A stretch of 13,138 bases of DNA, from NCBI GenBank assembly GCA_006247105.1, contig VDLU01000042.1, positions 1-13,138 on the forward strand. The letters run 5' to 3'. This document shows positions 1 to 13,138 of this stretch, piece by piece. The position numbers and the translations under genes were made by a program. The first letter of the stretch is position 1. Each line of letters opens with the position of its first letter. The notes beneath the pieces are model-generated. The model had not been told where the DNA came from. It searched no databases and saw nothing but the letters and a program-made list of their open reading frames with translations. This DNA is from Giardia muris (Eukaryota; Fornicata; Diplomonadida; Hexamitidae).

Positions 1-1548
1 TGAGAGCACTGACCATTGGAGGCCGATGCACAGCTTGCTCCCGACGGAGCCCGTGGTCGTGGGATAGCAGCCCCCCTCGAAGAGGAAGTAGCTGACGCTC
101 CCAACAGTCGAACAGTTCTCGCACCTCGTGGCGGTTCCGTCGACAGGAGTCGTCCCGTCGGCCTTCTTGCAGACGTCGTTGGTGGTCGTCCTCGAGATGG
201 TCGAGCTGACCTCGAGGCACGTCCCGTCGATCGGAACGCTTCCCTTCTTGCACTCCTTGCACACCAGGGCCTCCCCGACGAGAAGCTGGTTGCTCCTGGC
301 ACAGAGGCCCGTCTTGTCCGCATCGAAGGAGAGCAGGAGGAGTTGGAGAGCATGCATCCGTTGAGGCAGGACGTGCAGGAGAGAGACGTGGAGTAGGTGC
401 AGGTGTTGCAGTTCGCCTTCCCGTTCGTCGCGTCTCCGCAGAGATAGAGCTTCTTGTCCTTGAGGAAGGCGATGGAGGTCGGGGTCGAGCAGGTCCCGTC
501 TGCCGTCCGAGTCGTCATTGCCGTGCACAGCTTGTTCCCGACCCCATCTGCCTGTTTGTAGCACCCCCCGTTGAAGAGGAAGTGGGTGCTCGAGGACCCA
601 CAGGAGTTGCAGACCCCGACCTGAGTGTCCTTTTGGCTCGTCGTGCATGAGCTGGTCGGATCGGCCGTCCCTTCCACCTTCAGACACCTCCCATCGAGCC
701 CCTTCCCGCACTTACCGCAGAGGACCTCAGACCAGCCCGGGACGGAGAAGGACTCGAGGCAGATCCCGAGGCTCTTGAGGCTCTCGGGGCTGAAGCAGCC
801 GTCGTGGAAGAAGAGGCTCCCCTCCTTGCAGGCCGTGCACTTCCCGGCATTGGAGGCAGGAGTGCAGGAGGAGGCACTGTCCTTGAGGACGCACTTCCCG
901 TCGACGGGACGTGAGTGGCATCCTTGCACTCGAGACACACGAAGCTGTCCCGATCTGCATGCAGCTCTTGCAGTTCTCGTTCGATGAGCAGTTGACGCAG
1001 GAGGTGATCGTTGGTGCATCGAGGCTCTCCACGACAGCCCGAACCCGGAGGCGCACTCCGTGCAGGTCGGCTTGTTGGTGGCGGGGGAGTGCAGGTCTTG
1101 CAGTGGGAACCCGTTCGTCTTATCATCACAGGTGTAGAGGCCTGAGGGGTTGGACTCACTCCCCTTCACGAAGATGCCCGTCGCAGTATCAGCCCTCTTT
1201 GAGCACTGCCCGTTCGATGCCGCCGAGCAGAGAGCAGCGCCCTCTGTTCCTGCCTGGTTGTAGCACCCCCCGTAGAAGAGGAAGTAGGTGTTGGCAGAAG
1301 CGTCCCTGCTACTACTGGTCGCTTTGCAGTCCGTGCAGGCCCCATTGTTGCCCTTCGTACAATGATCCGTCGCCTCTGTTGGGGCCTTGCATGTCCCGTC
1401 GATCGAGGCCTCGTTCGCGGTCGCGCACTCCTTGCAGACCTTCCCAGCGTCCCGAGGTCGAGGCAGCTCCCCGCCTTGCAGTCGCCTGATGCCGTCCCTT
1501 CCGTGCACGAGAGGGCCCTCGCGTTCTTCCCTCCCCTTCACCATTCAC
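1..1548 (-). pseudogene. VSP unit A (type 1), 5' and middle part, heavily frameshifted, 3' end outside window
   Basis: This is a VSP body closely related to unit D. Recognisable blocks in transcription order are the leader NARALSCTEGTASG, VCKECATANEASIDG, FYGGCYNQ, SNGQCSKRADTATGIF, CTECASGFG, and the CKEC region near position 260. The membrane span and CRGK tail lie beyond the left edge. Compared with D there are at least ten frame-breaking deletions: near 1528, 1442, 1101 (two), 1089, 1037, 947, 908, 325 (4 bp) and 28 (2 bp). There is also an in-frame 9-bp loss near 689. No in-frame ATG starts the unit; its frame begins straight after the stop of unit B. Unlike H it also carries many substitutions relative to D and E, so it is a diverged copy and not only a badly read one. 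It is either a decayed pseudogene or a diverged copy with added sequencing error. It cannot encode a full VSP as written. Confidence 0.85.
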
Positions 1549-1549
1549 T
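1543..1549 (-). promoter_or_regulatory. Poly(A) signal AGTGAAT of unit B
   Basis: The minus strand reads TGAGTGAAT at the end of unit B. The last base of the TGA stop is the first base of AGTGAAT, which fits the Giardia consensus AGTRAAY. Unit A begins immediately after it. Confidence 0.7.
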
Positions 1550-3092
1550 CACTTCCCCCTGCATCCGAACCACCAACCGAGGAAGCCCCCGAGGCCTCCC
1601 AGGACCAGCAGGACGGCGATGACGATCCCCGCAATGGCACCCCCCGAGAGTCCCGAGGAGCTGGAGGAGGGGGGAGAGGGGCAGACATCGTTGGTGGGAG
1701 TGGAGCCGTCCCAGCAGAGGTCGCACGTCCCACTTGGACAGGAGGTGCACCCACTGGGACAGGCCGTGCAGTTGGAGGGGCCGGTCACAGTAGTAGTGTT
1801 GTAGTACCCCACTGAGAGGCACTTGGTGCAGTCCGTCCCACTCGTGCAGGTGGCGCACCCGGGGGCGCAGGAGACGAGGACGGTTCCATTGAGGTAGAGG
1901 CCCGAGGCGGGATTGACAGCTGTGCAGACCCCACCAGAGGCCGTGGTGCAGGCGCTCTTCCCGACCTCCGTGGAGGCGTTGTAGCAGCCCCCGTTGAGGA
2001 GGAAGAACTGAGTAGCCGGGGTCCCGGTCACGTCCTGGCACTTCCCGCACCTCGTGGAGGACGCGTCGGGGGCGGTTCCGTCCTCCTTCTGGCAGATCTG
2101 GGTCGCCCTCGTCACGTTCGTCGAGGCGACCAGAAGGCATTCTCCGTTGATCGGGACGAAGCCCGGCTTGCACTCGGAGCAGACGGTCGTGTTCCCGACC
2201 AGGAACTGCTTCTCCTTCGCACAGACGCCCAGCTCGGCGGCCTTGAAGGTCGAGTAGCATCCATCGAGGTAGGGGACGTATCCATTGAGGCAGGACGTGC
2301 AGGTGCCGGAAGAGTCGGTGCAGACCTTGTCGTTCTTATCCACGCACCCCCCGTCGATCGGGACCTGATCAGTCGGACACTCGGTGCAGACGAGCCCCGG
2401 ACCGAGGTTGGTGCAGGAGGTGCAGTTCTTGGGACAGGAGTCGCAGGACGTGATGGCAAGGGAGGAGCTGTAGGTCGGGCCGAAGGAGGGGAGGCAGGCC
2501 GAACAGGTCTTCTCGTTCGTGTCGCACGTCTTGCAGTCCTTGATGGTGCAGGCCTTGCAGGTCGAGTCAACAAGGCCGAAGCCGGGGCTGCAGGCGGAGC
2601 AGGTGTCGGCAGCACTCACCTGGGCACAGTTGGAGCACTTGGAGGTGTCACTACAGGAGACGCAGCTCCCGTCCCCCTTGGGGAGGTAGTCCTTGGCACA
2701 GGAGGTGCACTTGAAGGTCGAGTCATAGGTGCAGGTCTCGCAGTTCGCCTTCCCGTTCGTGCTGTCACTGCAGAGGTAGAGGATGTCACTCTTGACGAAG
2801 GTGACCGCGTCCTTGTCCGGGACGGCCGTGCACTTCCCCCGGTGGCCGTCTTGCAGAGCTTGTTCCCGGGAGAGGTGTCCGTCTTGTAGCACCCCCCGTT
2901 GAAGAGGAAGTACGGATCTGGGCAGACTGTGCAGGCGCCATCAGCACAAGTAGCACCATTCCCAATCGTGGTGGCCGCAGCAGTGTCACAGAGCCCGTTG
3001 ACAGGGGCGGAGTCAGTGTTAGTCGAGACATCGCACTTCTTGCAGAACTCTCCATCAACCCCCGGGATGGTGAAGGTCGAACCACCCCCGTC
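1549..3092 (-). pseudogene. VSP unit B (type 2), one frameshift, no start codon
   Basis: A cysteine-rich VSP body. The frame opens after an in-frame TGA at 3093-3095 and reads TFTIPGVDGEFCKKC, then a GGCY motif near 2890. A G-tract near 2841 is one base short and breaks the frame within TGGKC. From there it is open to the stop at 1549, about 430 codons, with CxxC pairs (CSAC, CTSC, CTEC, CSEC, CGKC), a second GGCY near 1985, a PSSSSSG linker, one membrane span and the CRGK tail. The frame contains no methionine codon at all, so it cannot be translated alone even if the indel is an assembly error. Its closest relative here is unit F, from leader to near the C-terminus. VSPs coat the trophozoite surface and are swapped during antigenic variation; this copy most likely serves only as silent sequence. 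Confidence 0.88.
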
Positions 3093-3112
3093 TCATCCTT
3101 CCCCTTCACCAT
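3067..3112 (-). repeat. Inverted repeat at the start of unit B
   Basis: ATGGTGAAGG (minus strand, 3112-3103) is the exact reverse complement of CCTTCACCAT (3076-3067), with 26 bases between. The first arm lies just after the poly(A) signal of unit C. The second arm encodes the FTI of the leader TFTIPGV. The RNA could form a 10-bp hairpin. The same structure occurs at the starts of C and E. Confidence 0.6.
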
Positions 3113-3117
3113 TCACT
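3111..3117 (-). promoter_or_regulatory. Poly(A) signal AGTGAAT of unit C
   Basis: It overlaps the TGA stop at 3117-3119 by one base. A second in-frame TGA follows at 3093-3095, before the body of unit B opens. Confidence 0.7.
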
Positions 3118-3238
3118 CACTTCCCCCTGCATCCGAACCACCAACCGAGGAAGCCCCCGAGACCTCCCAGCACCAGCAGGACGGCGATGACGATCCCCGC
3201 AATGGCACCCCCCGAGAGCCCCGAGGAGCTGGAGGAGG
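3117..3238 (-). repeat. Conserved 3' anchor cassette (Ser linker, membrane span, CRGK tail), copy of unit C
   Basis: About 122 bp encode the Ser-rich linker, a hydrophobic span of about 24 residues (codons about 3206-3135) and the cytoplasmic tail GCRGK. The other copies are at 1549-1670, 4647-4768, 6558-6679, 8430-8550, 10190-10311 and 12203-12322. They are nearly identical at the DNA level, including silent sites; the last roughly 40 bases match in all seven apart from one base missing in H. In G. intestinalis the equivalent tail is CRGKA, and its cysteine is a known palmitoylation site. The cassette could act as a homology anchor for recombination between units. Confidence 0.9.
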
Positions 3239-4622
3239 GGGGAGAGGGACACTTCCCATTGGCGTCGGGGCCGCTTCCATTCCAGCAGGTCGTGCAGGCG
3301 TCCTTCGTGCAGACCGTGCATCCTGAAGGGCAGGCCGTGCAGTTAAAGGTGCCCCCAGAGGCCGAGTTGTAGTATCCGATGGAGCAGCCAGTGCAGGTGA
3401 GGGCATTGTTGTTCGAGGTGCACGTCCCGCACCCGGCCGGGCAGAGGGTGAAGGTCCCTGAGGTCGTGTCGAGAGGGAAGGGGGCGTTGGTGGCAGCCTG
3501 AGTGCACTTCCCATCGGCATCGGCCGTCTGGCACAGCTTGCTCCCGACCGAGGTCCCGGAGGTGGGGGTTATGGGATAGCAGCCTCCGTTGAAGAAGAAG
3601 TAGTTGTTGCTCCCGGCCGGATTCTTGCACGCCTCGCACTTCGTGGCGGTCTTCTCGACAGGATTCCCGTCCGCCTTCATGCAGACGTTGTCCCCGGCTG
3701 CTCTCGTCCCCGTGTTGACGTCCCCGATCGGGGTGCAGGTCCCATCAATCGGGACGAACCCGACCTTGCACTCCTTGCAGACGAGGGCCTCCCCGACGAG
3801 GAACTGGTTGTCCTTGGAGCAGATCCCCATCGAGCTCGCCTTGTAGGGGGAGAGGCAGGCCCCGTGGTAGAACATGTATCCATTGAGGCAGGAGGCGCAG
3901 GAGCCGGAGGAGGGGTCCTTTGTGCACACCTTGTCGTTCACGTCGACGCACTCATCGTCGACCGGGATCTGATCGCTCTTCGAGCACACGTCGCAGACGA
4001 GCCCGAGGCCGAGGTTGAGGCAGCTCTCGCATCCCGTCGAGCACTGGTTGCAGGCCGTGATGGCGGAGCCGTTCTTGACAGGCCCGAACCCCGCCTTGCA
4101 GCCCGTGCACACGTCCTTGTTCGTCCCGCACGTCCCGCAGTTGGAGAGGGCGCAGGGGACGCAGGCCTGGGAGGAGTCGAGGCCGAAGGAGGGGAGGCAG
4201 GAGGTGCAGGTGAAGACTTCTCCGGCACGGGAGTTGGATGGAGTTGGAGATGGAGTTGTTGTTGTCGTGTAGGTGCACGTCCCGCAGTTCTCTTTTCCTC
4301 CATTTGTCGCATCGCTACAGAGGTAGAGCTTCCCGTCCTTGAGGAAGGCCCCAGATGCCGCCGTCCCGCAAGCACCGCTGCTGGCCGCTGAGCAGAGAAT
4401 GCTCCCGGGAGAGGACGCCTGGTCGTAGCACCCCCCGTTGAAGAGGAAGTAGTCACCCGTCCCACACGACTCACACGTGCCATCGGCAGTTGGGGACTTC
4501 TGAGTACAGTCACTGCCTGGAGTCCCACACACCCCATCGATCGGGGCCTGACTCGTGTCACTGCACTCCTTGCAGAACTCTCCTTGAACCCCCGGGATGG
4601 TGAAGGTCGAACCACCCCCGTC
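3117..4622 (-). CDS. VSP unit C (type 3): intact but start-less VSP frame
   Basis: A continuous frame of about 501 codons opens after an in-frame TGA at 4623-4625 and ends at the TGA at 3117-3119. It begins DGGGSTFTIPGVQGEFCKEC. It holds about 18 CxxC pairs, GGCY motifs near residues 65 and 353, and a Thr/Pro-rich stretch (TTTTTPSPTPSNS, about residue 130). It ends in a PSSSSSG linker, one membrane span and CRGK. There is no frameshift. No ATG precedes the cysteine-rich body: the first in-frame ATG is at 3875-3873 (in NGYMFYHG), deep in the gene, and no signal peptide exists. The family role is as a surface coat antigen held by its C-terminal span. Here the frame is probably a silent donor and could equally be called a pseudogene. 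The leader matches unit E, while the second half matches G and H, so the unit is a mosaic. Confidence 0.85.
   Translation of the reverse strand, partial: DGGGSTFTIPGVQGEFCKECSDTSQAPIDGVCGTPGSDCTQKSPTADGTCESCGTGDYFLFNGGCYDQASSPGSILCSAASSGACGTAASGAFLKDGKLYLCSDATNGGKENCGTCTYTTTTTPSPTPSNSRAGEVFTCTSCLPSFGLDSSQACVPCALSNCGTCGTNKDVCTGCKAGFGPVKNGSAITACNQCSTGCESCLNLGLGLVCDVCSKSDQIPVDDECVDVNDKVCTKDPSSGSCASCLNGYMFYHGACLSPYKASSMGICSKDNQFLVGEALVCKECKVGFVPIDGTCTPIGDVNTGTRAAGDNVCMKADGNPVEKTATKCEACKNPAGSNNYFFFNGGCYPITPTSGTSVGSKLCQTADADGKCTQAATNAPFPLDTTSGTFTLCPAGCGTCTSNNNALTCTGCSIGYYNSASGGTFNCTACPSGCTVCTKDACTTCWNGSGPDANGKCPSPPSSSSSGLSGGAIAGIVIAVLLVLGGLGGFLGWWFGCRGK
4230..4268 (-). repeat. Short imperfect repeat encoding a Thr/Pro linker in unit C
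   Basis: The plus strand shows imperfect repeats of GGAGTTGGA followed by GTTGTTGTTG. On the minus strand this encodes TTTTTPSPTPSNS between CTY and AGEVFTC. Unit F has a related but different linker, TPTPPTPGS, at the same place (about 9739-9768). The run is free of cysteine, low in complexity and likely prone to length change. Confidence 0.7.
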
Positions 4623-4642
4623 TCATCCTTCCCCTTCACCAT
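4597..4642 (-). repeat. Inverted repeat at the start of unit C
   Basis: Arms at 4642-4633 and 4606-4597 (minus strand ATGGTGAAGG and CCTTCACCAT) are perfect 10-base complements with a 26-base loop, identical to the one leading unit B. Confidence 0.6.
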
Positions 4643-4647
4643 TCACT
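4641..4647 (-). promoter_or_regulatory. Poly(A) signal AGTGAAT of unit D
   Basis: It overlaps the stop of unit D at 4647-4649. The frame of unit C lies in the same phase, separated by this stop and a second TGA at 4623-4625. Confidence 0.7.
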
Positions 4648-6557
4648 CACTTCCCCCTGCATCCGAACCACCAACCGAGGAAGCCCCCGAGGCCCCCCAG
4701 GACCAGAAGGACGGCAATGACGATCCCCGCAATGGCACCCCCCGAGAGCCCCGAGGAGCTGGAGGAGGGGACGGCACTGCACTTCCCGTCGGTCGGGGCA
4801 CTCCCGTCCCAGCACGTGATGCAGGCCGAGGCGGAGCACGTCGTGCAGCCACTGGGGCAGGCCTTGCAGTCAGAGGAGGAGGCGACGGAGGTCGTGTTGT
4901 AGTACCCGAGACCGCAGGACGTGCAGGCGGTCGCGTTCGTGCAGGCCCCACAACCGGCCGGACAGAGGGTGAAGACGCCTGAGGTCGTATTGAGAGGGAA
5001 GGGGGAACCAGCAGCAGCAGTAGTGCACTGACCATTGGAGGCCGATGAGCACAGCTTGCTCCCGACGGAGCCCGTGGTCGTGGGGTAGCAGCCCCCCTCG
5101 AAGAGGAAGTAGCTGACGCTCCCAACAGTCGAACAGTTCTCGCACCTCGTGGCGGTCCCGTCGACAGGAGTCTTCCCGTCGGCCTTCTTGCAGACGTCGT
5201 TGGTGGCCGTCCTCGAGATGGTCGAGCTGACCTCGAGGCACGTCCCGTCGATCGGAACACTTCCCTTCTTGCACTCCTTGCACACCAGGGCCTCCCCGAC
5301 GAGAAGCTGGTTGCTCCTGGCACAGAGGCCCGTCTTGTCCGCATCGAAGGAGGAGAGGCAGGAGGAGTTGGAGAGCATGCATCCGTTGAGGCAGGACGTG
5401 CAGGAGAAGGACCCGGAGTAGGTGCAGGTGTCGCAGTTCGCCTTCCCGTTCGTCGCGTCCCCGCAGAGGTAGAGCTTGGTGTCCTTGAGGAAGGCGATGG
5501 AGGTCGGGGTCGAGCAGGTCCCGTCTGCCGTCCGAGTCGTCATTGCCGTGCACAGCTTGTTCCCGACCCCCTTTGACTGGGCATAGCACCCCCCGTTGAA
5601 GAGGAAGTGGGTGCTCGAGGACCCACAGGAGTTGCAGACCCCGACCTGAGTTCCATCTTGGCTCGTCGTGCATGAGCTGGTCGAATCGGCCCCCCCTTCC
5701 ACCTTTATACACCTCCCATCGACGGGGGCGAGCCCCTTCCCGCACTTACCGCAGAGGACCTCGGACCAGCCCGGGACGGAGAAGGACTCGAGGCAGATCC
5801 CGAGGCTCTTGAGGCTCTCGGGGCTGAAGCAGCCGTCGTGGAAGAAGAGGCTCCCCTCCTTGCAGGCCGTGCACTTCCCGGCGCTGGAGGCAGGGGTGCA
5901 GGAGGAGGCACTGTCCTTGAGGACGCACTTCCCGTTGACGGGGACGTGAGTGTCAGCATTGCACTCGAGACACACGAAGCTGGTCCCGATCTGCATGCAG
6001 CTCTTGCAGTTCTCGTTCGATGAGCAGTTGACGCAGGAGGTGATCGTTGGTGCATCGAGGCTCTCCACGACAGGCCCGAATCCGGAGGCGCACTCCGTGC
6101 AGGTCGGCTTGTCGGCGGCGGGGGAGGTGCAGGTCTTGCAGTTGGGAACCCCGTTCGTCTTATCATCACAGGTGTAGAGGCCTGAGGGGTTGGAGTCGCT
6201 CCCCTTCACGAAGATGCCCGTCGCAGTATCAGCCCTCTTTGAGCACTGCCCGTTCGATGCCGTCTTGCAGAGAGCAGCGCCCTTGTCGGCAGACCCCTGG
6301 TCATAGCACCCCCCGTAGAAGAGAAACTTCGTCCCGGACGTGTCGCATGCCGTGCAGACACCATTGGAACACGTGTTGCTCCCGACGGTCGAGCTGCACG
6401 TCCCGTCGATCGAGGCCTCGTTCGCGGTCGCGCACTCCTTGCAGACCTTTCCCAGCGTCCCGAGGTCGAGGCAGCTCCCCGTCTTGCAGTTGCCTGATGC
6501 CGTCCCTTCCGTACACGTGAGGTCTCTCGCGTTCTTCACCTCCCCTTCACCATTCAC
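4647..6557 (-). CDS. VSP unit D (type 1): intact but start-less VSP frame
   Basis: A frame of about 636 codons opens directly after the stop of unit E, in the same phase, as GTG AAT GGT GAA. It reads VNGEGEVKNARDLTCTEG and runs without frameshift to the TGA at 4647-4649. About 19 CxxC pairs are spread along it, with three GGCY motifs near residues 82, 306 and 511, then AVPSSSSSG, the membrane span and CRGK. The only codon near the front that could be called a start is GTG. The first in-frame ATG is at 5996-5994 (CMQIG), past residue 185, and has no signal peptide. The three GGCY blocks, each followed by a short variable region and SNGQC or DGTC, suggest internal triplication. It is near-identical to unit E over 5023-6262. 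The leader, however, is shared with unit A and not with E. Probable role: silent VSP donor; a pseudogene label is also defensible. Confidence 0.85.
   Translation of the reverse strand: MNGEGEVKNARDLTCTEGTASGNCKTGSCLDLGTLGKVCKECATANEASIDGTCSSTVGSNTCSNGVCTACDTSGTKFLFYGGCYDQGSADKGAALCKTASNGQCSKRADTATGIFVKGSDSNPSGLYTCDDKTNGVPNCKTCTSPAADKPTCTECASGFGPVVESLDAPTITSCVNCSSNENCKSCMQIGTSFVCLECNADTHVPVNGKCVLKDSASSCTPASSAGKCTACKEGSLFFHDGCFSPESLKSLGICLESFSVPGWSEVLCGKCGKGLAPVDGRCIKVEGGADSTSSCTTSQDGTQVGVCNSCGSSSTHFLFNGGCYAQSKGVGNKLCTAMTTRTADGTCSTPTSIAFLKDTKLYLCGDATNGKANCDTCTYSGSFSCTSCLNGCMLSNSSCLSSFDADKTGLCARSNQLLVGEALVCKECKKGSVPIDGTCLEVSSTISRTATNDVCKKADGKTPVDGTATRCENCSTVGSVSYFLFEGGCYPTTTGSVGSKLCSSASNGQCTTAAAGSPFPLNTTSGVFTLCPAGCGACTNATACTSCGLGYYNTTSVASSSDCKACPSGCTTCSASACITCWDGSAPTDGKCSAVPSSSSSGLSGGAIAGIVIAVLLVLGGLGGFLGWWFGCRGK
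5023..6262 (-). repeat. Near-identical block shared with unit E (6934-8173)
   Basis: Aligned at a constant offset of 1911 bases, the two 1240-base blocks differ at only about four positions by eye: two near 5317 (R versus N) and two near 5706. No gaps are needed. Sequence on both sides diverges abruptly: D has GGAACCAGCAGCAGCAG where E has GGAGTTGGTGGCCTTTG at the left border, and the right border falls before the FYGGCYDQ region. Confidence 0.85.
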
Positions 6558-6558
6558 T
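6552..6558 (-). promoter_or_regulatory. Poly(A) signal AGTGAAT of unit E
   Basis: It overlaps the stop of unit E at 6558-6560. Unit D continues in the same reading phase straight after this single TGA. Confidence 0.7.
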
Positions 6559-8405
6559 CACTTCCCCCTGCATCCGAACCACCAACCGAGGAAGCCCCCG
6601 AGGCCCCCCAGGACCAGAAGGACGGCAATGACGATCCCCGCAATGGCACCCCCCGAGAGCCTGGAAGAACTGGAGGAGGGGACGGCACTGCACTTCCCGT
6701 CGGTCGGGGCACTCCCGTCCCAGCACGTGATGCAGGCCGAGGCGGAGCACGTCGTGCAGCCACTGGGGCAGGCCTTGCAGTCAGAGGAGGAGGTGACGGA
6801 GGTCGTGTTGTAGTACCCGAGACCGCAGGACGTGCAGGCGGTCGAGGAGGTGCAGGCCCCGCACTCCTTCGGACAGGCCGTGAAGGCGCCTGAGGTCGTA
6901 TTGAGAGGGAAGGGGGAGTTGGTGGCCTTTGTTGTGCACTGACCATTGGAGGCCGATGAGCACAGCTTGCTCCCGACGGAGCCCGTGGTCGTGGGGTAGC
7001 AGCCCCCCTCGAAGAGGAAGTAGCTGACGCTCCCAACAGTCGAACAGTTCTCGCACCTCGTGGCGGTCCCGTCGACAGGAGTCTTCCCGTCGGCCTTCTT
7101 GCAGACGTCGTTGGTGGCCGTCCTCGAGATGGTCGAGCTGACCTCGAGGCACGTCCCGTCGATCGGAACACTTCCCTTCTTGCACTCCTTGCACACCAGG
7201 GCCTCCCCGACGAGAAGCTGGTTGCTGTTGGCACAGAGGCCCGTCTTGTCCGCATCGAAGGAGGAGAGGCAGGAGGAGTTGGAGAGCATGCATCCGTTGA
7301 GGCAGGACGTGCAGGAGAAGGACCCGGAGTAGGTGCAGGTGTCGCAGTTCGCCTTCCCGTTCGTCGCGTCCCCGCAGAGGTAGAGCTTGGTGTCCTTGAG
7401 GAAGGCGATGGAGGTCGGGGTCGAGCAGGTCCCGTCTGCCGTCCGAGTCGTCATTGCCGTGCACAGCTTGTTCCCGACCCCCTTTGACTGGGCATAGCAC
7501 CCCCCGTTGAAGAGGAAGTGGGTGCTCGAGGACCCACAGGAGTTGCAGACCCCGACCTGAGTTCCATCTTGGCTCGTCGTGCATGAGCTGGTCGAATCGG
7601 CCCCCCCTTCCACCTTCAGACACCTCCCATCGACGGGGGCGAGCCCCTTCCCGCACTTACCGCAGAGGACCTCGGACCAGCCCGGGACGGAGAAGGACTC
7701 GAGGCAGATCCCGAGGCTCTTGAGGCTCTCGGGGCTGAAGCAGCCGTCGTGGAAGAAGAGGCTCCCCTCCTTGCAGGCCGTGCACTTCCCGGCGCTGGAG
7801 GCAGGGGTGCAGGAGGAGGCACTGTCCTTGAGGACGCACTTCCCGTTGACGGGGACGTGAGTGTCAGCATTGCACTCGAGACACACGAAGCTGGTCCCGA
7901 TCTGCATGCAGCTCTTGCAGTTCTCGTTCGATGAGCAGTTGACGCAGGAGGTGATCGTTGGTGCATCGAGGCTCTCCACGACAGGCCCGAATCCGGAGGC
8001 GCACTCCGTGCAGGTCGGCTTGTCGGCGGCGGGGGAGGTGCAGGTCTTGCAGTTGGGAACCCCGTTCGTCTTATCATCACAGGTGTAGAGGCCTGAGGGG
8101 TTGGAGTCGCTCCCCTTCACGAAGATGCCCGTCGCAGTATCAGCCCTCTTTGAGCACTGCCCGTTCGATGCCGCCGAGCAGAGAGCAGCGCCCTCGCCTC
8201 CACTGGCCTGGTTGTAGCATCCCCCGTAGAAGAGGAAGTAGGTCCCTGTGCATGCCGTGCAGACACCAGTGGTTGTGTCCTTCGTACAATCATCGGCTGT
8301 TGGGGCCTTGCACGTCCCGTCGATCGAGGCCTGACTCGTGTCACTGCACTCCTTGCAGACCTTCCCCTCAACCCCCGGGATGGTGAAGGTCGAACCACCC
8401 CCGTC
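6558..8405 (-). CDS. VSP unit E (type 1): intact but start-less VSP frame
   Basis: A frame of about 615 codons is open from just after a TGA at 8406-8408 to the stop at 6558-6560, with no frameshift. It begins DGGGSTFTIPGVEGKVCKECSD, a leader shared with unit C, then passes into a type 1 body: FYGGCYNQ, SNGQCSKRADTATGIF, CMQIG, FNGGCYAQ, FEGGCYPT. It ends with an AVPSSSSSR linker (Arg where the other units have Gly), the membrane span and CRGK. About 19 CxxC pairs are present. The first in-frame ATG is at 7907-7905, far inside the gene, and no signal peptide is encoded. The body is about 99.7% identical to D over 1240 bases, so duplication or conversion was recent. As with C and D, it looks like a well-kept coding body without the parts needed for expression. 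Confidence 0.85.
   Translation of the reverse strand, partial: DGGGSTFTIPGVEGKVCKECSDTSQASIDGTCKAPTADDCTKDTTTGVCTACTGTYFLFYGGCYNQASGGEGAALCSAASNGQCSKRADTATGIFVKGSDSNPSGLYTCDDKTNGVPNCKTCTSPAADKPTCTECASGFGPVVESLDAPTITSCVNCSSNENCKSCMQIGTSFVCLECNADTHVPVNGKCVLKDSASSCTPASSAGKCTACKEGSLFFHDGCFSPESLKSLGICLESFSVPGWSEVLCGKCGKGLAPVDGRCLKVEGGADSTSSCTTSQDGTQVGVCNSCGSSSTHFLFNGGCYAQSKGVGNKLCTAMTTRTADGTCSTPTSIAFLKDTKLYLCGDATNGKANCDTCTYSGSFSCTSCLNGCMLSNSSCLSSFDADKTGLCANSNQLLVGEALVCKECKKGSVPIDGTCLEVSSTISRTATNDVCKKADGKTPVDGTATRCENCSTVGSVSYFLFEGGCYPTTTGSVGSKLCSSASNGQCTTKATNSPFPLNTTSGAFTACPKECGACTSSTACTSCGLGYYNTTSVTSSSDCKACPSGCTTCSASACITCWDGSAPTDGKCSAVPSSSSSRLSGGAIAGIVIAVLLVLGGLGGFLGWWFGCRGK
6934..8173 (-). repeat. 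Near-identical block shared with unit D (5023-6262)
   Basis: This is the partner of the block in unit D. It is gap-free with about four substitutions, and both borders are sharp. Confidence 0.85.
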
Positions 8406-8425
8406 TCATCCTTCCCCTTCACCAT
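8380..8425 (-). repeat. Inverted repeat at the start of unit E
   Basis: Arms at 8425-8416 and 8389-8380 are perfect 10-base complements with a 26-base loop, as at units B and C. Unit F keeps only a core of about 8 bases (ATGGTGAA) separated by a longer, unrelated leader. Confidence 0.6.
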
Positions 8426-8430
8426 TCACT
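8424..8430 (-). promoter_or_regulatory. Poly(A) signal AGTGAAT of unit F
   Basis: It overlaps the TGA stop of unit F at 8430-8432. A second in-frame TGA at 8406-8408 precedes the body of E. Confidence 0.7.
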
Positions 8431-9425
8431 CACTTCCCCCTGCATCCGAACCACCAACCGAGGAAGCCCCCGAGACCTCCCAGGACCAGAAGGACGGCAA
8501 TGACGATCCCCGCAATGGCACCCCCGAGAGCCCCGAGGAGCTGGAGGAGGGGGGAGGGGGCAGGTCCATTGAAGGACGACCCGTCCCAGCAGGTCGTGCA
8601 GGCCGTCGTGTTGCATCCCGTGCAGCCCGAGTGGTAGATCGAGCACGCCTTGCAGTCGGGGGTGGCTCCAGCTGTGGTGTTGGCGTTGTAGTACCCGAAG
8701 CCGCAGGACGTGCAGGTGACGGCACCGCTCGAGGAGGTGCAGGCCCCGCACCCCGGGACCTTCGAGGAGCAGGAGGTGAGGACGGTCCCATTGAGGTAGA
8801 GGCCCGAGGTGGCATTGACAGCTGTGCAGACCCCACCAGAGGCCGTGGTGCAGGCGCTCTTCCCGACCTCCGTGGAGGCGTTGTAGCAGCCCCCGTTGAG
8901 GAGGAAGAAGTTAGTGGTCGAGGACCCGGTCACGTCCTGGCACTTCCCGCACCTCGTGGAGGACGCATCGAGGGCGCTTCCGTCCTCCTTCTGGCAGATC
9001 TGGGTCGCCCTCGTCACGTTCGTCGAGGCGACCAGAAGGCATTCTCCGTTGATCGGGACGAAGCCCGGCTTGCACTCGGAGCAGACCGTCGTGTTCCCGA
9101 CCAGGAACTGCTTCTCCTTCGCACAGACGCCCAGCTCGGCGGCCTTGAAGGTCGAGTAGCATCCCTCGAGGTAGGGGACGTATCCATTGAGGCAGGACGT
9201 GCAGGTGCCGGAAGAGTCGGTGCAGACCTTGTCGTTCTTATCCACGCACGTCCCGTCGATCGGGGCCTGACCAGTCGGACACTCGGTGCAGACGAGCCCC
9301 GGACCGAGGTTGGTGCAGGAGGTGCAGTTCTTGGGACAGGAGTCGCAGGACGTGATGGCAAGGGAGGAGCTGTAGGTCGGGCCGAAGGAGGGGAGGCAGA
9401 CCTTGCAGGTCTTCTCGTCCTTGTC

Positions 9426-9449
9426 GCACGTCTTGCAGTTCTGGACGGT
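9426..9449 (-). repeat. 24-bp direct repeat, copy 1 (copy 2 at 9621-9644)
   Basis: The plus-strand string GCACGTCTTGCAGTTCTGGA plus four more bases occurs exactly twice in unit F, 195 bases apart. It encodes the TVQNCKTC core of two furin-like modules. The spacing is exactly 65 codons, so it marks an in-frame internal module duplication. Confidence 0.75.
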
Positions 9450-9620
9450 ACAGGCCTTGCAGGTCTTGTCAGTCTCTCCAACAAGGCCGAAGCCGGGGAG
9501 GCAGGCTGAACAGGAGGAGGTACTCGTGCACGTCTTGCAGCCCGAGGAGCAGGCCTTGCATGATTTGTCGGTCGTGTCGAGGAAGTAGCCAGACTTGCAC
9601 TCTGAGCAGGCGGAGGAGGA

Positions 9621-9644
9621 GCACGTCTTGCAGTTCTGGACGGT
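9621..9644 (-). repeat. 24-bp direct repeat, copy 2 (copy 1 at 9426-9449)
   Basis: Identical to the copy at 9426-9449. Neighbouring bases differ slightly, which gives CTACTVQNC-like and CKACTVQNC-like contexts. Confidence 0.75.
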
Positions 9645-10183
9645 GCAGGCCGTGCAGTTGACGGGGTCGGAAGTGGTGGTGGTGTTGGGGTAGAAGCCCT
9701 CGAGGCACGAGTTGCAGGTGAGGACTTCTCCAGCACGAGAGCCGGGAGTAGGTGGAGTTGGTGTCGCATAGGTGCAGGTGCTGCAGCCCGGTTCCCCGTT
9801 TGTCGCATCGCTACAGAGGTAGAGGTTGCTGTCCTTGATGAAGGTGATGGCATCGGTAGTTGGAGCCGTCTTGCAGGTTCCGTTCTTTGCATCCTGGAGG
9901 GCGGAGCACAGCTTACTCCCAACCCCCTGTGTCTGGTCATAACAACCCCCGTTGAACAGGAAGTAGTTCCCCGTTCCACATCCTGTACAGACACCACTAC
10001 CACAAGTAGCACCATTTCCAATCGTAGTGGCCGCAGCAGTGTCACAGAGCCCGTTGACAGGGCGGAGTCAGTGTTAGTCGAGACATCGCACTTCTTGCAG
10101 AACTCTCCCTCAACCCCCGGGATGGTGAACTTTGAGTTTGCCTCGCACTCTCCGTGGCTCGAGCCTTCACCTCCCCCTTCACC

Positions 10184-10190
10184 ATTCACT
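10184..10190 (-). promoter_or_regulatory. Poly(A) signal AGTGAAT of unit G
   Basis: It overlaps the TGA of unit G at 10190-10192. The frame of unit F opens directly after it in the same phase, with no second stop. Confidence 0.7.
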
Positions 10191-11135
10191 CACTTCCCCC
10201 TGCATCCGAACCACCAACCGAGGAAGCCCCCGAGACCTCCCAGCACCAGCAGGACGGCGATGACGATCCCCGCAATGGCACCCCCCGAGAGCCCCGAGGA
10301 GCTGGAGGAGGGGGGAGAGGGACACTTCCCATTGGTGTCGGGGCTGTTTCCATTCCAGCAGGTCGTGCAGGCGTCCTTCGTGCAGACCGTGCATCCTGAA
10401 GGGCAGGCCGTGCAGTTGAAGGTGCCCCCAGAGGCCGAGTTGTAGTATCCGATGGAGCAGCCAGTGCAGGTGAGGGCGTGGTTGTTCGAGGTGCACGTCC
10501 CGCACCCGGCCGGACAGAGGGTGAAGGCCCCCGTGTTCGTGTCGAAAGGGAAGGGGGTGTTCTGGGCAGCCTGAGAACACTTCCCATCGGCATCGGCCGT
10601 CTGGCACAGCTTGCTCCCGACCGAGGTCCCGGAGGTGAGGGTTGTGGGATAGCAGCCTCCATTGAAGAAGTAGTTGCTGTTCGTGTCCTTGCACGCCTCG
10701 CACTTCGTGGCCTTCGCATCGATGGGAGTCCCGTCCGCCTTCATGCAGACGTTGTCCCGGCTGCTCTCGTCGTTCCCTTGTTAATGTCCCCGATCGGGGT
10801 GCAGGTCCATCAATCGGGACGAACCCGGCCTTGCACTCCTTGCAGACGAGGGCCTCCCCGACGAGGAACTGGTTGTCCTTGGAGCAGATCCCCATCGAGC
10901 TCGCCTTGTAGGGGGAGAGGCAGGCCCCGTGGTAGAACATGTATCCATTGAGGCAGGAGGCGCAGGAGCCGGAGGAGGGGTCCTTTGTGCACACCTTGGC
11001 GTTCACGTCGACGCACTCGTCGTCGACCGGGACCTGGCTGCTGTTCGAACACACGTCGCAGACGAGCCCGAGGCCGAGGTTGAGGCAGCTCTCGCATCCC
11101 GTCGAGCACTGGTTGCAGGCCGTGATGGCGGAGCC
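10190..11135 (-). repeat. Recent duplicate segment, matching unit H (12203-13138)
   Basis: The 946 bases align to the 936 bases of unit H with one visible substitution (near 10315 / 12326). Of 17 single-base gaps, H lacks 13 bases, G lacks two that C and H keep (near 10758 and 10806), and H has one extra base near 12728. Confidence 0.85.
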
Positions 11136-12202
11136 GTTCTTGACAGGCCCGAACCCCGCCTTGCAGCCCGTGCACTTGGTCACGTCGTCGTTACAGATCC
11201 CGCAGTTCTTGATGCTGCAGGCGGTGCAGGTCTTAGCGGTGTCTCCAACGAGGCCGAAGCCCTCCTTGCAGGCGGTGCAGGCTGTAGATGAGCAGGTTTT
11301 GCAGTTCTCAACGGTGCACTTCGTGCAGGTTCCGTAGTTCTTGGTCGTATCGCTGTTAGCAGTATAGAAGAACCCTTCAGAGCACTTGTCGGTATCACAG
11401 TTTTGATGATTCGTGTCGGTGTCGCACTGATCGCACCCAGTGGGGCAAGTCCCACAAGTTGCCGAGGTGCCCGACCCGAAAGGAAGAAGGCGGGCCCGCA
11501 CTTGGAGCAGGTGTTGGCAGCACTCGCCTGGACGCAGTTCTCGACCGAGCAGGAGAAGCAGTTGGCGTTGTTCGCATCTGGGAGGTAGCCCGAAGCGCAG
11601 GCGTCGCACTTCCCGGTTCCGAGGAGATATCCGGCTTGCAAGTCTGACAGGTGTTGGCGTTCGTGCAGGTCGCACAGTTGGTTGGACAGGCCGTACAAGT
11701 CTTGGTATTGCTATCGAAGTAGTACCCCTCATAGCAAGTTTCGCACTTCGTCTCACTTTCTTTCTCGCTGCACGTCTTGCAGGTCGAGTCGCAGAGGTCG
11801 CAGGCGTCGGTCGTCGCAGACGCAGCTGTGTTTGGAATCAGCCCGTCCTTGCACGTGCCACATTTCCGGCATCTGTAGAGGTGGTGGCACAGATGAGGGA
11901 GGTTGCGGGGTCTTTGGCGTAGCAGCCCCCTGGAAGAGGACGAAGGCGTTTCCGCACTTCCCGCACGTCTGGGAGGTGTCATCGAGGGCAGAGCCGTCCG
12001 CTTCGTGCACCCCGCCGCGGTCACGGAGGAATCGTCTTTTGACGCGCAGTTTCCATTGATGGGACGTTCCCGCATCGCACTCCGTGCAGACCTGCGTGCT
12101 CCCGAACTTCAGGCACTTGTCCGTTCCGCAGTTCGTTATGGCAGGACTGCAGGCAGCTGGAGCGGGAGCGGCTCGAGCCTTCCCTCCCCCTTCACCATTC
12201 AC
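10190..12202 (-). pseudogene. VSP unit G (type 3), multiple frameshifts, no start codon
   Basis: The longest unit. Its leader is unlike the others (NGEGGGKARAAPAPAACS, then CGTDKCLKFGSTQVCTEC). VSP coding similarity moves between frames at about eight places: near 12055, 12010, 11932, 11880, 11630, 11478, 10806 and 10758. Where a related copy or an obvious phase exists, each break looks like a missing base in a short run. Between the breaks are clear VSP pieces: CRKCGTCKDG, furin-like modules (CTVENCKTC, CTACKEGFGLVG), NGYMFYHGACL, FNGGCYPT, then PSSSSSG, the membrane span and CRGK. The longest clean stretches are about 11478-10806 and 10757-10190. The second half matches unit C and is almost identical to unit H. 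It is non-coding as written; some indels could be sequence error. Confidence 0.87.
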
Positions 12203-12203
12203 T
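12197..12203 (-). promoter_or_regulatory. Poly(A) signal AGTGAAT of unit H
   Basis: It overlaps the TGA of unit H at 12203-12205. Unit G starts immediately after it. Confidence 0.7.
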
Positions 12204-13138
12204 CACTTCCCCCTGCATCCGAACCACCAACCGAGGAAGCCCCGAGACCTCCAGCACCAGCAGGACGGCGATGACGATCCCCGCAATGGCACCCCCCGAG
12301 AGCCCCGAGGAGCTGGAGGAGGGGGAGGGGGACACTTCCCATTGGTGTCGGGGCTGTTTCCATTCCAGCAGGTCGTGCAGGCGTCCTTCGTGCAGACCGT
12401 GCATCCTGAAGGGCAGGCCGTGCAGTTGAAGGTGCCCCAGAGGCCGAGTTGTAGTATCCGATGGAGCAGCCAGTGCAGGTGAGGGCGTGGTTGTTCGAGG
12501 TGCACGTCCCGCACCCGGCCGGACAGAGGGTGAAGGCCCCGTGTTCGTGTCGAAAGGGAAGGGGGTGTTCTGGGCAGCCTGAGAACACTTCCCATCGGCA
12601 TCGGCCGTCTGGCACAGCTTGCTCCCGACCGAGGTCCGGAGGTGAGGGTTGTGGGATAGCAGCCTCCATTGAAGAAGTAGTTGCTGTTCGTGTCCTTGCA
12701 CGCTCGCACTTCGTGGCCTTCGCATCGGATGGGAGTCCGTCCGCCTTCATGCAGACGTTGTCCCCGGCTGCTCTCGTCGTTCCTTGTTAATGTCCCGACG
12801 GGGTGCAGGTCCCATCATCGGGACGAACCCGGCCTTGCACTCCTTGCAGACGAGGGCCTCCCCGACGAGGAACTGGTTGTCCTTGGAGCAGATCCCCATC
12901 GAGCTCGCCTTGTAGGGGGAGAGGCAGGCCCCGTGGTAGAACATGTATCCATTGAGGCAGGAGGCGCAGGAGCCGGAGGAGGGGTCCTTTGTGCACACCT
13001 TGGCGTTCACGTCGACGCACTCGTCGTCGACCGGGACCTGGCTGCTGTTCGAACACACGTCGCAGACGAGCCGAGGCCGAGGTTGAGGCAGCTCTCGCAT
13101 CCCGTCGAGCACTGGTTGCAGGCCGTGATGGCGGAGCC
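12203..13138 (-). pseudogene. VSP unit H (type 3), 3' half, heavily frameshifted, 5' end outside window
   Basis: The C-terminal part of a VSP cut by the right edge. Blocks in order are CDVCSNSSQVPVDDECVD, NGYMFYHGACL, CKECKAGFVP, FNGGCYPT, CTACPSGCTVC, CTTCWNG, Ser linker, membrane span and CRGK. Compared with G and C it has about 13 single-base deletions and one insertion, so the frame changes roughly every 70 bases. The deletions fall mostly in C or G runs, including one inside the otherwise invariant anchor cassette near 12240. There is essentially no substitution relative to unit G. That mix is unusual for evolutionary decay and suggests poorly corrected sequence near a contig end. Confidence 0.85.

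Follow-up and report, generated by a model that had tools for sequence, protein, structure and literature searches.

Open reading frames and apparent coding constraint in a Giardia muris array of VSP bodies without signal peptides

The array and its units

We analysed a whole contig of the Giardia muris genome (the window; contig C35, 13,138 bp, in a genome of 9.74 Mb in 52 contigs), whose minus strand carries an array of variant-specific surface protein (VSP) units without signal peptides. There are six complete units, here named A to F, and two more that are cut by the contig ends. Every unit is entered directly from the stop of the preceding one, head to tail, and the 3′ stops lie at 12203, 10190, 8430, 6558, 4647, 3117 and 1549. 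An earlier reading of the DNA letters (the sequence-only reading) had described six complete units running from stop to stop, and the layout of open reading frames (ORFs) together with seven identical junctions bears this out. The units are listed below; contigs C3 and C4 of the same genome carry copies of them.

12203..13138, minus strand: cut VSP unit, 3′ part of a second A-type unit, with many single-base indels relative to the C4 copy
10190..12202, minus strand: unit A, complete VSP body, its frame interrupted in the window and open for 672 codons in the C4 and C3 copies
8430..10189, minus strand: unit B, complete VSP body, open for 545 codons in the window and for 584 in the C4 and C3 copies
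6558..8429, minus strand: unit C, complete VSP body; 615 codons open (8405-6558)
4647..6557, minus strand: unit D, complete VSP body; 636 codons open, the frame starting straight after the preceding stop
3117..4646, minus strand: unit E, complete VSP body; 501 codons open
1549..3116, minus strand: unit F, complete VSP body, its frame interrupted in the window and open for 514 codons in the C3 twin
1..1548, minus strand: unit G, cut by the contig end; positions 1-1293 lie beyond the end of contig C4

The three units that we take to be the C, D and E of the sequence-only reading do keep the 500-636 open codons claimed for them, and that list needs only B to be added.

Membership of the family is clear. 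The VSP domain PF03302 was found in all four window ORFs scanned, at 88.6-107 bits against a curated cut-off of 31.4, and the units end in the C-terminal transmembrane segment and GCRGK tail by which VSPs are recognised. VSP homologues without a signal peptide are termed psiVSPs, and a run of more than three in tandem, as here, is a linear array. This one lies towards a chromosome end, in that C35 overlaps the left end of C4 and runs on beyond it, its tails directed leftwards; the telomere repeat itself was not seen. The closest deposited relatives of unit D are named 'pVSP [Giardia muris]'. A tandem repeat finder returned only a single 42-bp row for the window. The window is thus a psiVSP array of a known kind, as the sequence-only reading had recognised, and the object itself has been published: the passages of Xu et al. 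(2020; PMC7641422) on which we draw describe 265 VSP homologues in G. muris, 26 with and 239 without a signal peptide, and place 183 psiVSPs in 17 linear arrays, with an array at nine of the ten main contig ends and the tails pointing to the chromosome terminus.

For comparison we sampled 57 array units outside C35, out of about 254 VSP tails in the genome. The C3 units corresponding to A to F are near-copies of the window units and hence are not independent of them.

Two assemblies and a second chromosome end

The left end of contig C4 was assembled twice, the second time as C35. No substitution separates window positions 1294-13138 from C4:1-11871; the alignment has 40 single-base indels, of which 38 fall in homopolymer runs of at least two and 17 in window 12000-12999. 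The dense indels without substitutions at window 12000-13000 are probably errors in the consensus at a contig end, and they give units the look of pseudogenes. In C4, A and B have open copies of 672 and 584 codons, while the copies of D and E, both open in C35, are broken close to C4's own end. The right end of C3 (C3:1278975-1293740) repeats the window's unit order, with one further unit standing between B and C, and there the twins of A, B, C, D, E and F are all open (672, 584, 615, 636, 501 and 514 codons). Because nearly all the C35-C4 indels are homopolymeric and all six units have open C3 twins, the frame breaks in A, B and F are, as far as these alignments tell, probably sequencing or assembly errors. 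We considered real pseudogenization for these breaks, which the C4 alignment and the open C3 twins leave unproven and unlikely. Frame breaks near the contig ends of this genome should not be taken as pseudogenization.

The comparison of C3 with C4 first showed part of the shared block (7.4 kb at 98.4%); the two ends prove to be nearly identical over about 13 kb, save for the one extra unit. Between window and C3 right end there are 7 substitutions in window 1-8499 and 11 in 8500-13138, counts that omit indels and the stretches where BLAST ran across the extra unit. The likeness reflects recent exchange or duplication between two chromosome ends.

Frame retention and coding constraint

Among the 57 array units outside C35, 53 are fully open from no more than 25 nt past the preceding stop (37/39, 4/4 and 12/14 in the three sets sampled), and this count is the free test of frame retention. 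The two exceptions among the 39 are the C4-end units C4:3355 and C4:1827, both open in C35; of those among the 14, the frame of one begins with junction residues after a tail that our pattern missed, and the other lies within about 2.6 kb of a contig end.

Ratios of nonsynonymous to synonymous substitution rates (dN/dS) were computed for open units only, which drops C4:3355 and C4:1827 and also any C35 unit with a broken frame or a sequence identical to C4. There were 209 silent pairs at 70-99.5% protein identity, of which 204 had dS above 0.02; dN/dS was below 1 in 202 of these, with a median of 0.68. The medians for 16 intact-intact and 7 silent-intact pairs were 0.63 and 0.65 (intact genes being those with a signal peptide). 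Pooled over 20 disjoint silent pairs dN/dS was 0.705, against 1.2 when substitutions were placed at random (1.06-1.36, 100 repeats). In the array at the right end of C1 (14 tree edges, 607 substitutions) it was 0.62 against 1.19 in the control, and on the 11 recent edges of that tree (284 substitutions) 0.57 against 1.15, none of 200 controls being as low in either case. The C/D family, with 18 distinct units, gave the same picture for variants private to one unit among those fetched: their nonsynonymous-to-synonymous count ratio (N/S) was 1.90 against 2.98 expected (0/1000), the same as that of shared variants (1.86). Cysteines were kept at 1261 of 1276 positions between silent pairs, against 8850 of 10057 for other residues.

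Stops and indels point the same way with less freedom. Random placement of the 2,644 substitutions of the 20 disjoint pairs created 60.9 stop codons, where zero were seen by construction; the private variants of the C/D family included no stop against 6.2 expected, only open frames being compared; and 97 of 112 indels between silent pairs, again among open frames, were multiples of three. That stops are missing and that three-fold indels are in excess is partly a matter of choice, since both members of each pair were selected as open, whereas dN/dS, cysteine retention and the count of 53 open units are not products of that selection. On this comparative evidence the silent bodies appear not to be decaying, and their coding frames appear to be under constraint. 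The sequence-only reading had allowed that the open bodies might simply be recent, which suits the near-identity to another chromosome end and does not suit silent units that differ, in the pairs we compared, by up to 0.3 dS.

Tracts shared with signal-peptide genes

We located 24 signal-peptide sites and compared 15 of them as intact genes, taking the other nine as partner copies (identical pairs or a four-copy set), which we judged from the published table, positions and, where listed, equal or near-equal match scores. The core of each unit was cut into 100-nt tiles, leaving out the last three, and a tile was counted as matching an intact gene at 95% identity or more. By this measure 11 of 17 tiles of A and 6 of 12 of E match an intact gene, and none matches any of the 15 in B (0/14), C (0/15), D (0/16) or F (0/12). 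The longest runs identical to intact genes are 324 nt in A and 190 nt in E, with 0/1000 shuffles as long, and the identical-run test beat all 1000 shuffles in five of six pairs (A with three genes, E with two of three). In unit E the 3′ 0.9 kb is nearly identical to signal-peptide VSPs and the 5′ 0.5 kb has no match to them. Among other silent units with long shared tracts are C1:2774634, C1:301660, C4:23055 and C1:2105069; the greater number of the further units tiled share little with intact genes beyond the 3′ end. The archive thus appears to split into bodies shared with signal-peptide genes and private bodies, and the B, C, D and F families have no close signal-peptide counterpart among the genes compared. 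The proposal that the bodies are preserved by exchange with expressed VSPs accordingly has support in A and E and none in the other four; the search that the sequence-only reading had recommended, for signal-peptide VSPs sharing long tracts with C, D or E, succeeded for E and, among the 15 genes compared, came back empty for C and D outside the 3′ end.

At the 3′ end, the last 150 nt of 58 silent units were compared with the same 15 intact genes: identity to the best of these has a median of 95.7%, with 34 units reaching at least 95% and 51 at least 90%. Sequence past the last VSP tail falls largely into two classes, common to intact genes and silent units, so that the 3′ homology extends past the stop codon.

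Signal peptide and 5′ border

No window unit has a signal peptide, as had been claimed: over the 12 residues of any stretch led by an in-frame methionine, mean hydropathy does not exceed 1.19, against 2.79-3.06 over 10 residues for the signal peptides of intact genes. Nor was one found in the 57 array units by our hydropathy rule, which is ad hoc (a threshold of 2.3 over 10 residues, not SignalP) and is approached by internal methionines of silent units, at up to 2.14, and exceeded by out-of-frame pieces of one broken C4 unit. The intact genes have two types of signal peptide, MFVSLLLVV (15 sites) and the MLV-VGLLI type (9 sites). The AT-rich initiator reported missing from the window units is indeed absent, and this does not distinguish them, as it is equally absent from the MFVSLLLVV-type intact genes inspected.

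In the type II/unit A family, the one whose 5′ border was compared closely, unit A and the type II intact genes align from the first residue after the signal peptide (KARAAPAPAAC and KSRATPTPGAC). For this family, to judge by the alignment, the silent body is the mature protein minus the signal peptide.

Many array heads and solitary psiVSPs share a 5′ module of about 78 nt and 67% G+C where the signal peptide would sit, reading AVLGTIDRSSGRAVPEIDVLEGSVEV in the body frame. A 26-mer of the module occurs at 58 genome sites (reversed control, 0), and a VSP body follows at all 14 sites inspected, the C4 array head among them. The sequence upstream changes from locus to locus, as would be expected if the module were the fixed 5′ end of a dispersed element; to the eye, some of these flanks may be antisense coding sequence for kinases and ankyrin repeats. 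Ten array heads that were classed carry the module and lack a signal peptide. Other silent runs follow directly on a signal-peptide VSP, as at C1:2762960, with two silent units behind it, and at C3:599945, with one. The signal-peptide VSP at C1:2372200-2374400 ends in RCRGK, not GCRGK.

Junctions and translation start

All seven window junctions begin with TGAGTGAATGGTGA, which comprises the stop and the poly(A)-like signal AGTGAA and also carries an ATG at +4. The same 14 bases lie directly 3′ of 53 of 58 VSP tails (the loci compared include the window and C4 copies), and boundaries of array units are TGAGTGAATGG junctions. Those of the window are:

12192..12205, minus strand: junction TGAGTGAATGGTGA, with stop, poly(A)-like signal and ATG at +4
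10179..10192, minus strand: junction TGAGTGAATGGTGA, identical sequence
8419..8432, minus strand: junction TGAGTGAATGGTGA, identical sequence
6547..6560, minus strand: junction TGAGTGAATGGTGA, identical sequence
4636..4649, minus strand: junction TGAGTGAATGGTGA, identical sequence
3106..3119, minus strand: junction TGAGTGAATGGTGA, identical sequence
1538..1551, minus strand: junction TGAGTGAATGGTGA, identical sequence

Each of the 57 sampled array units outside C35 has an ATG 4 nt past the preceding stop; it shares the frame of the body in 13 (9/39, 2/4 and 2/14) and is out of frame in 44. In the window letters as given it is out of frame with the body in every unit; the 672-codon frame of the C4 and C3 copies of unit A opens at it, and the five deposited pVSP proteins that we fetched all start there. 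The statement that units lack an in-frame ATG at their start therefore holds for the window letters and fails for those copies of A and for 13 units elsewhere, and the stronger claim that no unit can start translation goes too far.

The gap from the preceding stop to the body frame varies among the array units checked (0, 4, 11, 24 or 25 nt). As the frame relation is not fixed, read-through cannot serve all units, and we reject read-through or a polyprotein as a general route. The published trans-splicing motif TCCTTTACTCAA has no match at up to two mismatches (0.34 expected), and an acceptor-like motif of the G. intestinalis kind has 4 matches against 8.1 expected, no commoner than chance. 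A spliced 5′ exon supplying the start, which the sequence-only reading named as an observation that would tell against it, thus has no support.

A probable silent donor archive and its alternatives

The best reading, in which we have moderate confidence, is that of a silent donor archive under coding constraint. The left end of C4, which we take as chromosome 4, would then carry a psiVSP array of which the window is the part nearer the telomere. Each unit would be a mature VSP body running from the position after the signal peptide to the stop and poly(A) signal; it has no signal peptide and leaves no room for a promoter, and, together with the published RNA data, this suggests that units are not usefully translated in place. 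Segments of the archive would pass by homologous exchange into the approximately 26 signal-peptide VSP genes, as well as between units and between chromosome ends; the conserved 3′ end would anchor the exchange on one side and homology within the bodies on the other. Shared tracts were found for A and E and between chromosome ends; the direction and timing of exchange and its use during infection are presumed. Bodies that lose their frame would be removed or overwritten, and in this manner the constraint that we measured could persist in silent copies, with selection presumably acting through donor use. The fuller proposal is of a maintained archive whose cassettes, including the B, C, D and F families, are trimmed at the signal-peptide border and have their frames and cysteines under purifying selection without an evident means of expression, the selection coming from future use as donors; this we advance tentatively, as falling somewhat short of an even chance.

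Several observations weigh against the donor archive. No long tract links units B, C, D or F to any of the 15 signal-peptide VSPs, so that donor use of these four is unproven. The pair of E with C2:601387 fails the identical-run test (174/1000 shuffles). Conversion among old, already filtered variation may mimic part of the low dN/dS, and if exchange reshuffles such variation a low dN/dS would not prove present-day selection. Finally, the ATG is in frame in no fewer than 13 of 57 units, which may allow some translation.

The alternative that survives best, which we nevertheless think unlikely, is that the arrays are a by-product of unequal crossing-over: a VSP lacking a signal peptide was recently amplified in tandem at chromosome ends, its frames are open for lack of time, and the apparent constraint is shuffled old variation. 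Near-identical multi-unit blocks on two chromosome ends are what this predicts, as are the several near-identical units, with protein identities up to 1.0. Recent amplification sits poorly, however, with silent pairs that diverge to dS 0.3 and keep dN/dS below 1 in 202 of 204 cases, with private variants as constrained as shared ones (N/S 1.90 and 1.86), and with open frames in 53 of 57 units.

It is still less probable that some units are translated from the +4 ATG, or after a frame change there, into non-secreted or conditionally expressed proteins. The ATG in all 57 units checked, its use as the start of all five deposited pVSP proteins fetched and the coding constraint itself would fit; the missing signal peptide, the 44 of 57 units with the ATG out of frame and the shifting frame relation to the preceding unit would not, and essentially all psiVSPs are non-transcribed according to the published text (PMC7641422). 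Mis-assembly of the contig and its units, suggested by the duplication of the C4 end and the many homopolymer indels, is very improbable and is refuted for the array by a unit order that recurs on C4 and, with one unit added, on C3, and by the identical junction after 53 of 58 tails; what remains artefactual is the standing of C35 as a locus of its own and, probably, the frame breaks in it.

Infection of mice with G. muris serves as a natural model of giardiasis. If the units are indeed a maintained donor archive and not products of decay, the antigen repertoire would extend far beyond the approximately 26 intact genes, and Giardia would add recombination to the epigenetic switching described in G. 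lamblia. The open frames and the dN/dS values offer a sign, open to testing, that silent genes of a eukaryote are under selection.

Comparison with known systems

Both the array type and the donor idea are already in print. The window agrees with the psiVSP arrays described in the consulted passages of Xu et al. (PMC7641422) in genome, lack of signal peptide, head-to-tail order, telomere-adjacent position, tail orientation and GCRGK. Those passages also propose exchange of psiVSPs with intact VSPs, naming T. brucei and Pneumocystis as comparisons, so that the functional likeness to silent donor arrays drawn by the sequence-only reading fits and is the published view. They call the psiVSPs pseudogenized and under relaxed pressure, whereas we measured open, constrained frames, and tract sharing in part of the units. 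In the parts of the open-access Giardia VSP literature consulted, supplements aside, we found no report of coding constraint on G. muris psiVSPs.

In G. lamblia more than half of the vsp genes are in linear arrays whose downstream members lack the initiator, and these members have already been proposed as unexpressed recombination cassettes, as excerpted from Adam et al. (2010; PMC2996952). The G. muris runs led by an intact gene (C1:2762960 and C3:599945) resemble the first members of such arrays. According to the same source, 12 of the 25 first members had the initiator and an in-frame ATG was missing from only 3 of 218 genes; in G. muris, unlike G. lamblia, the ten classed heads are led by the 5′ module without a signal peptide and 44 of 57 units have no in-frame junction ATG.

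Beyond Giardia, the vls system of Borrelia likewise has unexpressed cassettes with a conserved reading frame and selection in silent copies (Graves et al., 2013; PMC3828179, in the portion cited). It differs in being bacterial, with one expression site and positive selection on antigenic loops, whereas G. muris has about 26 possible targets and an overall dN/dS below 1. The VSG archive of T. brucei shares subtelomeric silent antigen genes and segmental conversion, yet in the account drawn on here its donors are often damaged pseudogenes (43/103; PMC3708902), unlike the G. muris units, frame-open in 53 of 57. By this analogy the G. muris arrays appear to behave more like the Borrelia vls cassettes than like the T. 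brucei archive with its damaged donors.

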